Shown: piece after piece, positions 3,227 to 12,005 of the stretch
How positions within the stretch are numbered: position 1 is the first letter of the stretch
How the letters are laid out: every line of letters starts with the position of its first letter
Source of the DNA: a bacterium
GTDB taxonomy: Bacteria > NPL-UPA2 > JAGMAN01
NCBI GenBank assembly: GCA_023130215.1
Contig: JAGMAN010000087.1
Span: 1-12,265, forward strand
Reading direction: 5' to 3'
DNA length: 12,265 nt
Notes under the pieces: model-generated
Told to the model about the DNA's origin: nothing
Databases searched by the model: none
What the model saw: the letters and a program-made list of their open reading frames with translations, nothing else
Position numbers and translations under genes: made by a program

Positions 3227-3845
3227 AATTCCGGGGACAGTCCCCTCCCTTTCTTAATCTGCTCACATGCAGAGCTGAATACTCGGCTCCCTCTGGCTTG
3301 AGCAAGCTCTGCATTACCGCTACCTCCTTCACTTCCATCGAACCGGCTGAACGGTCTTTCTCGGATTCAATGGCTTTAATGAGACTATCCCTATTCTTAG
3401 GAGATTTCACCCTCCCTAAGGTTAGATGGGGATGAAATTGTCTCTCCTCTCTCTTGAATCCGCATCTACTGAGAATCTCCTCTAAATTCCGGCTAATCCT
3501 TGAAAGATTTCCCTTCCCTTCTCTTTTTTCTTTCCCTTTCCATTCATCCTCATTCGCCCCTACCCATATTACTCGAGGATTCTGGAGCTTAGGAAAAACA
3601 CCCAATCCAGAAAAAGAGAGGGCGAATGGCCTTATCTCCTTTACAGATTCATCTGTGGCCTTAAAGATATCCTTCAACTGTGACCCTAAGATATAGCCAA
3701 GGAATTTCAGTGTAATATGAATATTTTCAGGACTAACCCACTTCACATCCGCCTGGGGCTTTTTCAGCTCGTCTTGAATAGAAGCTAACTTTGACCTGAT
3801 CTGGCCATCAAGCCTAACAGCGATAAAAGTTCTTATCTTCTCCAT
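3225..3845 (-). CDS. thpR: RNA 2',3'-cyclic phosphodiesterase (2H phosphoesterase, ThpR/LigT family)
   Basis: ThpR hydrolyses RNA 2',3'-cyclic phosphodiester ends to 2'-phosphomonoesters and can join tRNA halves in vitro. The 206-aa protein has the two HxTx motifs of the 2H superfamily: His43-Ile-Thr45 in [11 protein letters not shown] and His140-Leu-Thr142 in [11 protein letters not shown]. The typical N-terminus (IRTFIAVRL), the '[10 protein letters not shown]' strand and the late '[20 protein letters not shown]' are also present. Two oddities: a Lys/Glu/Gly-rich insertion at about 101-115 encoded by an almost pure purine tract, and a C-terminal GGDCPRN encoded by a GC-rich palindrome (3233-3245). 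ATG 3845 follows the cinA TAA by one base, so translation is probably coupled. Its physiological role in bacteria is not well established; an association with recA is seen in other lineages. Confidence 0.92.
3233..3245. repeat. 13-bp GC-rich palindrome, REP-like, at thpR 3' end
   Basis: GGGGACAGTCCCC is a perfect inverted repeat of two 6-bp arms around a central base. As RNA it could form a 5-bp stem with a 3-nt loop. It encodes the last residues of ThpR and ends 6 nt before the recA ribosome binding site. Its form resembles short extragenic palindromes, but only one copy is in the window, so calling it a dispersed repeat is inference. Confidence 0.5.
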
Positions 3846-3846
3846 G

Positions 3847-4590
3847 TTATTCTTTCAATAGATGCTTCCTTACCAAATCTAAGGCGGCTTGAGAGGCTTT
3901 CTCTTTTATCATCTCCCGGCTTCCTGAGAAATGGTGCTCCTCTGTGGAGTTACTGTCATCGCCGGCTAAGGCGATATATACCAGCCCAACGGGCTTTTTC
4001 TGTGTTGTCCCTCCCGGTCCAGCGATTCCGGTAACGGCTAAACCAATGTCACTTCGGCTCAAGCTTCTTATCCCTTCAGCCATTTCCTGAGATACCTGGG
4101 GACTAACTGCTCCGAATTTATTGAGTTTCTCCTGCCGAACTTTCAGGATATTCATCTTCGCCTCGGGACTGTATGCGACAACGCTGTGCAGGAAATAATT
4201 CGAACTTCCCGGGACATTGGTGAGACGATGTGAGATTAAGCCTCCGGTGCAGGATTCAGCTACGCCGATGGTTTTGTGTCGTAAACTGAGAAGCACTCCC
4301 ACTACCTTCTCCAGGGTCTCTTCATCCACCCCAAAGATGTAATCGCCCAGGCGCTCTCTGACCTTAGCCTCAGCCTGACTAATCAACCCGCTAAGCGAGT
4401 CCTCATTCCCTGCCGGGCCACGGGCAGTAATCCTTATTTCCACTTCTGTGGGATGCGCTATTAGTCCAATCTCCAGATTCTCCCTGGTCTTTGATATATC
4501 CCTGAGTTTCTTATCCACTGCCGGTTCGTTTAAGCCAACTACCTTCAATAGCCGGGTCCTGGTCACTCCGCCAGCAAATTTTTTCTTCAT
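3847..4590 (-). CDS. cinA: CinA-like nicotinamide-nucleotide amidohydrolase, lacking the N-terminal COG1058 domain
   Basis: The C-terminal CinA/PncC domain converts NMN to nicotinate mononucleotide plus ammonia, salvaging NMN made for example by NAD-dependent DNA ligase. This 247-aa protein carries that domain at about 85-245, with IGVAESCTGGLISHRLTNVPG, the VVAYSPEAKMNIL segment, GAVSPQVSQEMAEG, and VTGIAGPGGTTQKKPVGLVY. Ahead of it (about 10-80) is the KH-like middle domain of full-length CinA ('LLKVVGLNEPAVDKKLRDI', 'IGLIAHPTEVEIRITARG'). The usual N-terminal molybdopterin-binding-like domain, roughly 170 residues with ADP-ribose pyrophosphatase activity in full-length proteins, is missing: pgsA ends 3 nt upstream and leaves no room. 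Full-length CinA is about 410-420 aa. The ATG at 4590 has AAAGG about 7 nt upstream. This is either a lineage-specific short form or a domain loss; deamidase function is likely, pyrophosphatase activity is not. Confidence 0.88.
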   Translation of the reverse strand: MKKKFAGGVTRTRLLKVVGLNEPAVDKKLRDISKTRENLEIGLIAHPTEVEIRITARGPAGNEDSLSGLISQAEAKVRERLGDYIFGVDEETLEKVVGVLLSLRHKTIGVAESCTGGLISHRLTNVPGSSNYFLHSVVAYSPEAKMNILKVRQEKLNKFGAVSPQVSQEMAEGIRSLSRSDIGLAVTGIAGPGGTTQKKPVGLVYIALAGDDSNSTEEHHFSGSREMIKEKASQAALDLVRKHLLKE

Positions 4591-9879: not shown

Positions 9880-10149
9880 CTATTTTCTCAGCCCAAGCTT
9901 ATCTATAGCAGCCTGGTATCTGTCTTTATTCTCTTTCCTCAGGTAATCCAGCAGCTTTCTGCGCTGACTGACCATCCGGAGAAGTCCACGGCGGCTGTGA
10001 TGGTCCTTCTTAAAGACCTTAAAATGCTCAGTCAAACCCTTTATCCTCTCCGTAAGAAGGGCAATCTGCACCTCCGCAGAACCAGTATCCTTCTCATGAA
10101 CCTTAAACTTACTAATGGTATCTTCCTTACACTCCTTGGTCAAAGCCAT
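9880..10149 (-). CDS. rpsO: 30S ribosomal protein S15
   Basis: S15 binds the three-way junction of the 16S rRNA central domain early in 30S assembly and contributes to an intersubunit bridge. The protein is 89 aa, the usual length, beginning [20 protein letters not shown] and carrying the family signature [19 protein letters not shown], then [22 protein letters not shown]. The frame is open for 33 codons upstream into ribF, but ATG 10149 is the correct start because GGAGG (10157-10161) lies 7 nt upstream and homologues begin here. It follows ribF by 37 nt. In several bacteria S15 represses its own mRNA through leader structures; I could not identify a convincing one in this short leader. Confidence 0.98.
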
Positions 10150-10156
10150 TTTCTTC

Positions 10157-10161
10157 CCTCC
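10157..10161 (-). promoter_or_regulatory. rpsO ribosome binding site
   Basis: GGAGG on the minus strand, 7 nt from the rpsO ATG. It decides the start against the longer open frame that would add 33 residues overlapping ribF. Confidence 0.8.
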
Positions 10162-10186
10162 AGAGAAATTTTCTCGTATCAGTCTA

Positions 10187-11125
10187 TCACGGAATTGAAT
10201 CTTTGTAAAGTGGGCTTTGGGTGAGGATTTCTCGGGCTTCCTGCGCATCCCTCTCTATCTGCTCTTTTGCCTCTTTCCGATCAGAAAAGAACATCCTCCC
10301 CCGCATCCTCTCAATAAAGATGACTTCTAACTGAAGACCATAAATGTCCTTTTGGAGGTTGAATAGGTGTGCCTCAATTACTCCCCCCTTCGCTTTCACT
10401 ATTCCCAACACCCCGGGAAGAATATTTCCATCCCACTTTACCCAGGCCGCATAAGCTCCCTCAGGCGGAACCATCTCTCCCCCGGACTTAATATTGGCGG
10501 TAGGATAACCAATACAGCGAGAGAGCTTCTTCCCCTTAATTACTCTTCCTGAAATGGAATAAGGCCGCCCTAAAAGCTTCTCTGCATCAGATACCAACCC
10601 CTCTTGAATAAATTGGCGAATGCGGGTGCTGCTTAACGTTTGCCCCTTTCGCATAAGCGGTCTCAGTGCCTTCACCCTGAAACCATACTGCTTACCCATT
10701 TCTTTTAGAAAACTCATATTCCCTTTCTGTCCACTGCCGAATAGATAATTAGAGCCAGCCAGGACATCCTTAACTTTTAGCTTCTTACAGAGGATCTCAG
10801 CTACGAACTGGTGGGGAGTTATCAGGGAAAACCTTTTATTGAAATTAACCACCAGGCAGGCTTGGACTCCCAGCCTTTTCATCAGCCTGAGCTTGTGCTC
10901 AGTAGAAGTCAGAAGGGGAAGGTTGTTTTCCGGTTTGAGAATCCGGCGGGGATGGGGATGGAAGGTGAGAACCATACTGGTTCCTTCTATCTCCCTGGCC
11001 CGCTCCACCACCATTCTAATTACCTTCTGGTGGCCAATGTGCATCCCGTCAAAGCTTCCCAGGGTCAAGACCAAACCCCGGTAATTTCCTCTAATATTCT
11101 CCAGTCCATAGATAACTTCCATCAT
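10187..11125 (-). CDS. ribF: Bifunctional riboflavin kinase / FAD synthetase
   Basis: RibF phosphorylates riboflavin to FMN and adenylylates FMN to FAD. The 312-aa protein has the N-terminal nucleotidyltransferase domain (about 1-175) with [17 protein letters not shown] (20-36), TFHPHP (54-59), [13 protein letters not shown] (124-136) and [10 protein letters not shown] (164-173). The C-terminal kinase domain (about 185-302) has [18 protein letters not shown], the GYPTANI motif (206-212), Glu251 in IEAHLFNL, and [12 protein letters not shown]. Two deviations: the usual G-x-D-F-x-F-G motif has Asn126 in place of Asp, and the stretch before Glu251, commonly 'NIGxRPT', reads GIVKAKGGV and is a few residues shorter. 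Two consecutive ATGs (11125, 11122) are possible; GGAG is 4 or 7 nt upstream, so the second may be used. No FMN riboswitch is visible upstream. Confidence 0.95.
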
Positions 11126-11166
11126 TACTCTCCAGGCAAAGTTTCGGCCTTAGCCCTGAGCGGATT

Positions 11167-11211
11167 TTTTCTTGCCGCCGTGTATTAAGGGAGCTATAAG
11201 CGGCAAGAAAA
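11167..11211. repeat. Perfect 12-bp inverted repeat (hairpin inside the gap element)
   Basis: TTTTCTTGCCGC (11167-11178) and its exact complement GCGGCAAGAAAA (11200-11211) enclose a 21-nt loop. On the minus strand no T-run follows the right-hand arm, so it is not a standard intrinsic terminator. Confidence 0.75.
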
Positions 11212-11213
11212 CC

Positions 11214-11282
11214 CTCGGAGGCACGCTCCCAAGAAAAACTATATCTATTATGGAACCAATCCTTTGTATGGAGCGTGCCGAG
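11214..11282. repeat. Second inverted repeat inside the gap element (9 bp plus 4 bp)
   Basis: GCACGCTCC (11221-11229) pairs with GGAGCGTGC (11270-11278), and CTCG (11214-11217) pairs with CGAG (11279-11282), with a 3-nt bulge at 11218-11220. The 40-nt loop between the arms is AT-rich. Confidence 0.65.
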
Positions 11283-11315
11283 AATGAGCGAAGGGCTATG
11301 CCGAAACTTAAATGC

Positions 11316-12005
11316 CTATTTATGCATATATGGTTCACAAGCTGAGAGAAAATTCTCTGGATGGGGAGCTTCCCTCAACTGCTCTAAACTGACCGAATGC
11401 TTGATATGGAAGGGACCGGACCTTATTCTGGTTAGTTCCGCCTGATGAGCTCCACAGCCCAGGGCCTCTCCCATGTCTGCGCATATAGTTCGAACATATG
11501 TCCCCTTGGAACAGACGATGCTAAATCTCACTCTGGGCAGCTCTACTTTTAGGATTTTAAAAGATATCTTAACCTTGCGAGGAGTTCTCTCCACCACCTT
11601 CCCCTGCCGGGCCAGTTGATAAAGCCTTCTGCCCTGGTGATGGACAGCTGAGACCATAGGGGGAATCTGCTCAATTTCTCCCTGGAAGCGATTGGCTGCT
11701 TCCATGATCTCTGCTTCGCTGACATGGAGTTTATCTACCTCCCTTAAGATCCTGCCGCTGGAGTCCTGAGTATCGGTAGAAACTCCTAAAACCATGACTC
11801 CTTCATACTCCTTGTCATGATTAGTCAAAAACCTGACTGCCTTAGTGGCCTTTCCCAAACATGTAATTAAGACTCCAGTTGCTTCAGGGTCCAGGGTGCC
11901 GGTATGACCCACCTTCTTCATCCGGAAGATCCTCCGGACCTGAAGAATCACATCGTGCGATGTTATTCCCCGAGGCTTATTGATATTCAGGATACCATCC
12001 ATCAT
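11316..12005 (-). CDS. truB: tRNA pseudouridine(55) synthase TruB, short form
   Basis: TruB isomerises U55 to pseudouridine in the T-loop of elongator tRNAs. The 229-aa protein contains the catalytic domain: GILNINKPRGITSHDVI (4-20), catalytic Asp39 in HTGTLDPEATGVL, Tyr67 in KEYEGVMVLG, IPPMVSAVHHQGRRLYQLAR (114-133), SKGTYVRTICADMG (166-179) and LTRIRSGPF (191-199). It stops soon after SVSLEQL, whereas E. coli and B. subtilis TruB (a little over 300 aa) continue into a C-terminal PUA-like region. Short TruB proteins are known in some phyla, so this may be normal for the lineage, but the stop abuts the inverted-repeat element. The first ATG (12005) overlaps the rbfA stop in the form ATGATG; GAAGG lies about 8 nt upstream. 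The overlap implies translational coupling with rbfA. Confidence 0.95.
   Translation of the reverse strand: MMDGILNINKPRGITSHDVILQVRRIFRMKKVGHTGTLDPEATGVLITCLGKATKAVRFLTNHDKEYEGVMVLGVSTDTQDSSGRILREVDKLHVSEAEIMEAANRFQGEIEQIPPMVSAVHHQGRRLYQLARQGKVVERTPRKVKISFKILKVELPRVRFSIVCSKGTYVRTICADMGEALGCGAHQAELTRIRSGPFHIKHSVSLEQLREAPHPENFLSACEPYMHK

Follow-up and report, generated by a model that had tools for sequence, protein, structure and literature searches.

A Palindromic Mobile Element in the Tight Operon Junctions of an NPL-UPA2 Genus

The truB-ribF Junction and the Fold of the Element

In the 12,265-nucleotide stretch of DNA analyzed here (the window), truB (11316-12005; Pfam TruB_N, 1.2e-56) and ribF (10187-11125; Pfam FAD_syn, 5.9e-49, and Flavokinase, 6.1e-29) both lie on the minus strand, and the 190-bp gap between them is the only large one: all the other neighboring genes overlap or are separated by 13 bp or less, which is tighter than the limit of 40 bp given in an earlier reading of the letters of the window (the sequence-only reading). 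The open reading frame called as rpsO (9880-10248) overlaps ribF by 62 bp (10187-10248), and the actual start of rpsO probably lies further in. The truB-ribF gap holds an element about 175 bp long. Its core occupies positions 11139-11309, and its sense strand is the minus strand, the direction shared with its upstream neighbor truB and its downstream neighbor ribF. The stop codon of truB is located 6 bp ahead of the core and the start codon of ribF 12-13 bp past it, with GGAGAG in between.

Three helices make up the fold of the core, namely the outer stem P1 and the hairpins P2 and P3, and together they close a three-way junction. The 5' arm of P1 (AAGTTTCGGC-A-TAGCCC, 11293-11309, minus strand) and its 3' arm (GGGCTAAGGCCGAAACTT, 11139-11156, minus strand, delimited by arm pairing, alignment and covariation) pair perfectly over 10 bp (11139-11148/11300-11309) and again in the inner part of the stem (11151-11156/11293-11298). 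On the same strand, the P2 hairpin (11214-11282) has arms at 11270-11282 and 11214-11229, including a perfect 10-bp pairing (11220-11229/11270-11279) inside a longer imperfect one, and the P3 hairpin (11167-11211) has perfect 12-bp arms (11200-11211 and 11167-11178). The two strands joining these helices, J1/2 (TTCGCTCATT, 11283-11292) and J3/1 (AATCCGCTCA, 11157-11166), are unpaired, and each includes CGCTCA, which is the TGAGCG that the sequence-only reading had pointed out at 11285-11290 and 11157-11162. The inverted-repeat arms which it had described (the 10-bp outer arms, the inner part of the outer stem, the perfect 12-bp hairpin and a second hairpin) were all located, and the three helices are those which it had drawn. 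The sense strand folds at -82.4 kcal/mol, as against a mean of -51.9 kcal/mol for dinucleotide-shuffled sequences (z -7.0), and the plus strand at -78.9 kcal/mol (z -6.5); on neither strand did any of the 200 shuffles fold as well. No gathering-level match was obtained with any known Rfam RNA or riboswitch, the only matches being sub-threshold ones to miRNA models and to one snoRNA model, and no tRNA gene was found.

Copies, Covariation and Modules

The genome carrying the window (G000; 1.01 Mb, 136 contigs) contains one more complete copy, 92% identical, along with several partial copies. Two sister genomes of the same genus, G001 and G002, gave 16 and 17 matches, respectively, and G003, which belongs to a second family of the same order, gave one match at 77% identity; no match was found in the genome of a third family. 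The census, based on these searches and about 614 kb of contigs from three genomes, comprises 19 complete copies (2 in G000, 7 in G001, 9 in G002, and 1 in G003) and about 17 further interrupted copies and remnants, the three genomes of the genus being fragmented and 69-90% complete. In a pattern scan of named genomes, matches occurred only in metagenome-assembled genomes labeled candidate division NPL-UPA2 or Nitrospirota, and neither the element nor its pattern was matched in the plasmid and virus collections. No account of repeats in this group was found in the literature, and no mention of repeats, palindromes or transposition was found in the first NPL-UPA2 genome paper (PMC6305446). No relationship is seen between the flanks of different copies, except for a weak consensus immediately outside the core, extending a few bases in the other copies (5' AGAAT(G/T)-AAG..., ...CTT-CATATGGCTAA 3').

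In the alignment of the 19 complete copies, 95% of the stem cells are standard pairs, versus 37-49% in slid controls; 13 of the 41 pairs are changed on both sides, and none of 500 shuffles reached the observed values. The sequence of P1 is variable and its pairing is kept, 8 of its 16 pairs being altered on both sides, although the individual P1 counts are approximate because of a one-base shift in register in two of the P1 rows. The row of copy L074 shows a recombinant P1 arm. Three apical pairs of P2 are compensatory. Most copies show P1 and P3 as drawn, with a longer P3 in two copies of G002. The shape of P2 is less constant; nearly all the copies have a stable fold. The unpaired junction strands have a mean pairwise identity of 97%, as compared with 69% in the P2 loop and 66% in the P3 loop. 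The observation of the sequence-only reading, which had taken the order in the gap to be unlikely by chance, is upheld on all three counts that could have refuted it: by folding energies far better than those of shuffled sequence, by the copies elsewhere in G000 and in the sister genomes, and by the conservation of the arms with compensatory changes. The non-Watson-Crick stem cells include 8 G-U versus 15 A-C on the sense strand; since there is no G-U bias on this strand, the covariation does not decide between a folded RNA and a folded DNA.

Some copies carry additional modules. An insert of 62-65 nt forming two hairpins was found at the same place in P2 (alignment columns 38-102) in L082, L084, and L086, and since these three copies come from two species, a long subfamily of the element exists. 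Two 3' remnants, L067 and L099, have a different upstream module in common (GGAGTTGCTTGAGTTTGTTGAGTT...ACTCAATGAACT), joined to the same 3' part. A further repeat, with the motifs CAGTACTGC.. and GGTGTTTCACCG, abuts the element or is fused to it in L074 (on the upstream side), L094, and L095, and a hybrid P1 arm, GTTTCACCG, occurs in L074 and L097. The hybrid arm and the fused repeat suggest that the repeat families recombined with each other. A second structured family, built from multiple hairpin modules (length 268 nt, fold z -8.8), was found in L137:318-585, at the truB-ribF junction of G002, and in L145, at the pepQ-efp junction of G000. It is present in all three genomes and in both orientations, and one of its modules resembles the two-hairpin insert.

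Occupied and Empty Junctions

At most of the orthologous junctions, the sister genomes lack the element and have only a few bases between the genes. The clearest case is that of cinA-thpR, where the window has a 1-bp gap (3845-3847, minus strand) and G002 a full element (L076). Other junctions empty in one genome and occupied in another are prmC-murA, ribD-ribE, rplT-trkA, proC-punA, ylxP-rbfA, pepQ-efp, V-type atpA-atpB, and that of an amidotransferase gene followed by glnA, the genes being named on the basis of Pfam in several cases and otherwise from a reading of the protein sequences. Two junctions have a common history: truB-ribF, which carries a complete copy in G000, an internally deleted remnant in G001 and a different repeat in G002, and lpxL-hisI, where a copy or remnants occur in all three genomes.

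The unrelated flanks and the empty orthologous sites indicate that the element moves, and its dispersal and its insertion into formerly empty tight junctions show it to be mobile. Of the two possibilities raised by the sequence-only reading, the dispersed copies, their flanks and the empty sites strongly support the first, insertion of a non-autonomous mobile element into an operon. The other, a structured RNA controlling the expression of ribF, is not supported, since the same element lies between many unrelated gene pairs and the sister genomes hold a remnant or a different repeat before ribF. It is also highly improbable that the element is an immobile ancestral regulatory leader which has been lost many times: the occupancy or remnants common to truB-ribF in G000 and G001 and to lpxL-hisI in all three genomes might be read in this way, but most of the sister junctions are cleanly empty, and the gene pairs on either side of the element are many and different, with unrelated flanks.

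No target-site duplication of fixed length was detected, the overlap varying from negative to positive across sites, and suggestive repeats of 4-7 bp were seen by eye at a few insertion sites only. Remnants consisting of the 3' part clearly outnumber those consisting of the 5' part, and most of the truncated remnants start within the 3' arm of P3. This excess could reflect either blocked copying or deletion at a hairpin. The partial copies L097, L098, and L156 are deletions, since both of their ends are kept. The domains expected of possible movers were rare in the three incomplete genomes: RVT_1 reverse transcriptase was absent from all three, the positive controls being detected; Y1_Tnp occurs as one gene, in G001 only, with no element match in the surrounding 2.4 kb; and one DDE_Tnp_1 gene and one rve match (below the cut-off) lie in stretches having no element matches. 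Retrotransposition by a resident reverse transcriptase was rejected on these grounds, as was a RAYT/Y1 mover, the single gene being unlinked to the element. Separate searches with the 5' and 3' ends gave no long element that might be an autonomous parent with the same ends, in genomes that are fragmented and 69-90% complete.

Orientation and Placement of the Copies

Each of the 19 complete copies is flanked by two co-directional genes and runs in one orientation, in sense with them (the genes flanking L083, L086, and L087 were assigned by hand). When the remnants are included, 1 of about 36 copies is antisense, and this is a degraded piece in L070. The upstream stop codon is located between 14 nt inside the core and about 14 nt ahead of it, except in L074, where another repeat lies in between. 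In several copies, the end of the element at the 5' arm of P1 supplies the stop codon of the upstream gene (protein tails ending in EVSA or EVPA). The downstream start codon lies about 0-57 nt past the element, mostly with a ribosome-binding site in between. In the remnants L071, L100, and L068, the sequence now codes for the C-terminal tail of the upstream protein: the tail is GKKKSAQG in hisD and RKSAQG in a nucleotidyltransferase, and L068 has a similar one, as judged by eye.

Since 91% of adjacent gene pairs are co-directional, this location is unremarkable in itself; the signal is the orientation combined with the tight gaps. Once the element has been subtracted, the residual gap is 60 nt or less in 14 of the 16 measurable copies, whereas tight co-directional gaps account for 7% of the intergenic bases (14% when the final 12 nt of every open reading frame are counted as allowed), giving an enrichment of p ~6e-15 or ~1e-10, respectively. 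Even the ribosomal spc operon has a copy, located between rplN and rplX. The control was another palindromic repeat of the same genomes, seen at truB-ribF of G002, which was found in either orientation and in wider gaps. Other repeats located in co-directional gaps likewise show no single orientation (25 to 16 pairs); in a Fisher test, 34:1 versus 16:10 gave p ~5e-4, these being hand counts of copies that are partly non-independent. The idea that a sense promoter or an antisense terminator might cause the orientation was rejected, as no promoter was found within the element and its sole terminator-like hairpin is on the sense strand.

Orientation might also be dictated by the replication fork, if HUH-type single-strand transposition occurred into the lagging-strand template and the fork moved in the same direction as most operons are read. 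We regard this as improbable: gene and fork direction may largely coincide, given the proportion of co-directional pairs, and one Y1_Tnp gene is present in G001, but the preference for tight junctions is left unexplained, this sole gene has no flanking element, the other two genomes yielded no such gene, and the fragmented contigs do not reveal the direction of the fork.

A somewhat better case can be made for a positively selected cis-regulatory or processing RNA which tunes the relative expression of the neighboring cistrons by way of cleavage by an RNase, stalling of ribosomes close to the stop codon, or attenuation, although we still find it doubtful. In its favor are the sense-only intercistronic position, the conserved unpaired junction strands, the terminator-like hairpin on the sense strand alone and the fact that E. 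coli REPs located 15 nt or less from a stop codon cause ribosomes to stall (PMC12306157). The occupied junctions, however, are mostly species-specific and the orthologues do without the element, the neighboring genes have no common theme, and G-U pairs are not preferred on the sense strand.

The pattern might result from insertion rather than from later selection, if the machinery itself steers the element to stop/ribosome-binding-site junctions and orients it with transcription, for example via single-stranded or R-loop DNA, or via mRNA. This is a minority possibility that deserves to be kept in mind, as complete copies are all but absent from the larger intergenic spaces, although about 86-93% of the permissive room is found there, the orientation is strict, and the excess of 3' remnants, most of them starting in the 3' arm of P3, would fit RNA-templated copying blocked at a hairpin. 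Against it stand the lack of a reverse-transcriptase domain and the presence of a single Y1 transposase (in G001) in the three genomes, the fact that L097, L098, and L156 are deletions keeping both ends, and the lack of an established fixed target motif. The more specific version, in which insertion is actively directed to this boundary by coupling to transcription or translation, seems unlikely to us.

Comparison With Known Elements

The element behaves as the other small interspersed palindromic elements do (REP, ERIC, BOX, and MITE). Like ERIC, it is an imperfect palindrome of about 100-200 bp which is intergenic and located in transcribed operons. The insertion of ERIC gives a TA duplication, which was not seen at the element, and the Rfam screens, the only search made on this point, gave no sequence link. 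ERIC can affect transcript stability depending on its orientation (PMC3049150); its action is described as orientation-specific, but its occurrence is not described as restricted to one orientation.

REP/BIME/REPIN sequences with their RAYT (TnpA-REP) are likewise non-autonomous palindromes located near stop codons and in the intercistronic gaps of operons, with hairpins recognized by a single-strand transposase. The present element differs in having a three-helix junction, and the conserved GTAG/CGTC tag of the two large REP super-families (PMC3733652) is absent from its ends (22 and 32 aligned ends). MITEs are comparable in being short, having terminal inverted repeats (here the P1 arms, 10 bp perfect plus the inner 6 bp, kept by covariation), having no long coding sequence and showing dispersed insertion with empty orthologous sites; they differ in that no consistent target-site duplication and no parent transposon with the same ends were found here. 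The element fails to show the REP/REPIN features (the tag and a linked RAYT) and the strict MITE duplication.

The BOX, RUP and SPRITE repeats of Streptococcus pneumoniae are also modular, structured, probably parasitic, and able to be co-transcribed. They are over-represented between convergent genes, with about 61% on the leading strand (PMC3049150), whereas the present family is sense-only and lies inside operons. Integron attC sites, lastly, are folded imperfect palindromes in a fixed orientation between co-directional genes, but no R'/R'' core sites were seen by eye in the element, which is found in housekeeping operons whose orthologues are otherwise colinear, not in cassette arrays.

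Proposed Explanation and Significance

The explanation which we favor, and consider probable, is that a non-autonomous palindromic mobile element, folded as a three-way junction or a cruciform, has given rise to a family spread through the operons of the genus, and that copies persist at sites compatible with a sense transcript. The element is most likely moved in trans as DNA, by a recombinase recognizing the folded junction, and would persist only at sites whose polycistronic mRNA tolerates its sense transcript or benefits from it. At such sites, it would end the upstream reading frame and fold as a self-contained structure, leaving the downstream ribosome-binding site free without stopping the RNA polymerase. 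Provided rplN and rplX are co-transcribed as usual, the copy between them implies that RNA polymerase reads through the element. Like the REP and ERIC sequences, the element is probably a spacer or processing site between cistrons, passive or mildly modulating in its effect, rather than a dedicated regulator of ribF; its strict sense orientation and its position point toward a possible general role in intercistronic mRNA. The weak point of this explanation is that selection against harm alone does not easily account for the complete copies missing from larger gaps, a near absence which directed insertion or positive selection would explain.

The strict sense placement inside operons is unusual, since the published BOX, RUP and SPRITE repeats favor convergent gaps and show little orientation preference (PMC3049150). 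The matched empty sites in close relatives constitute a natural experiment on the effects of a folded RNA between two cistrons on their expression, and the same sites make it possible to ask whether the orientation results from selection or from the mechanism of insertion.
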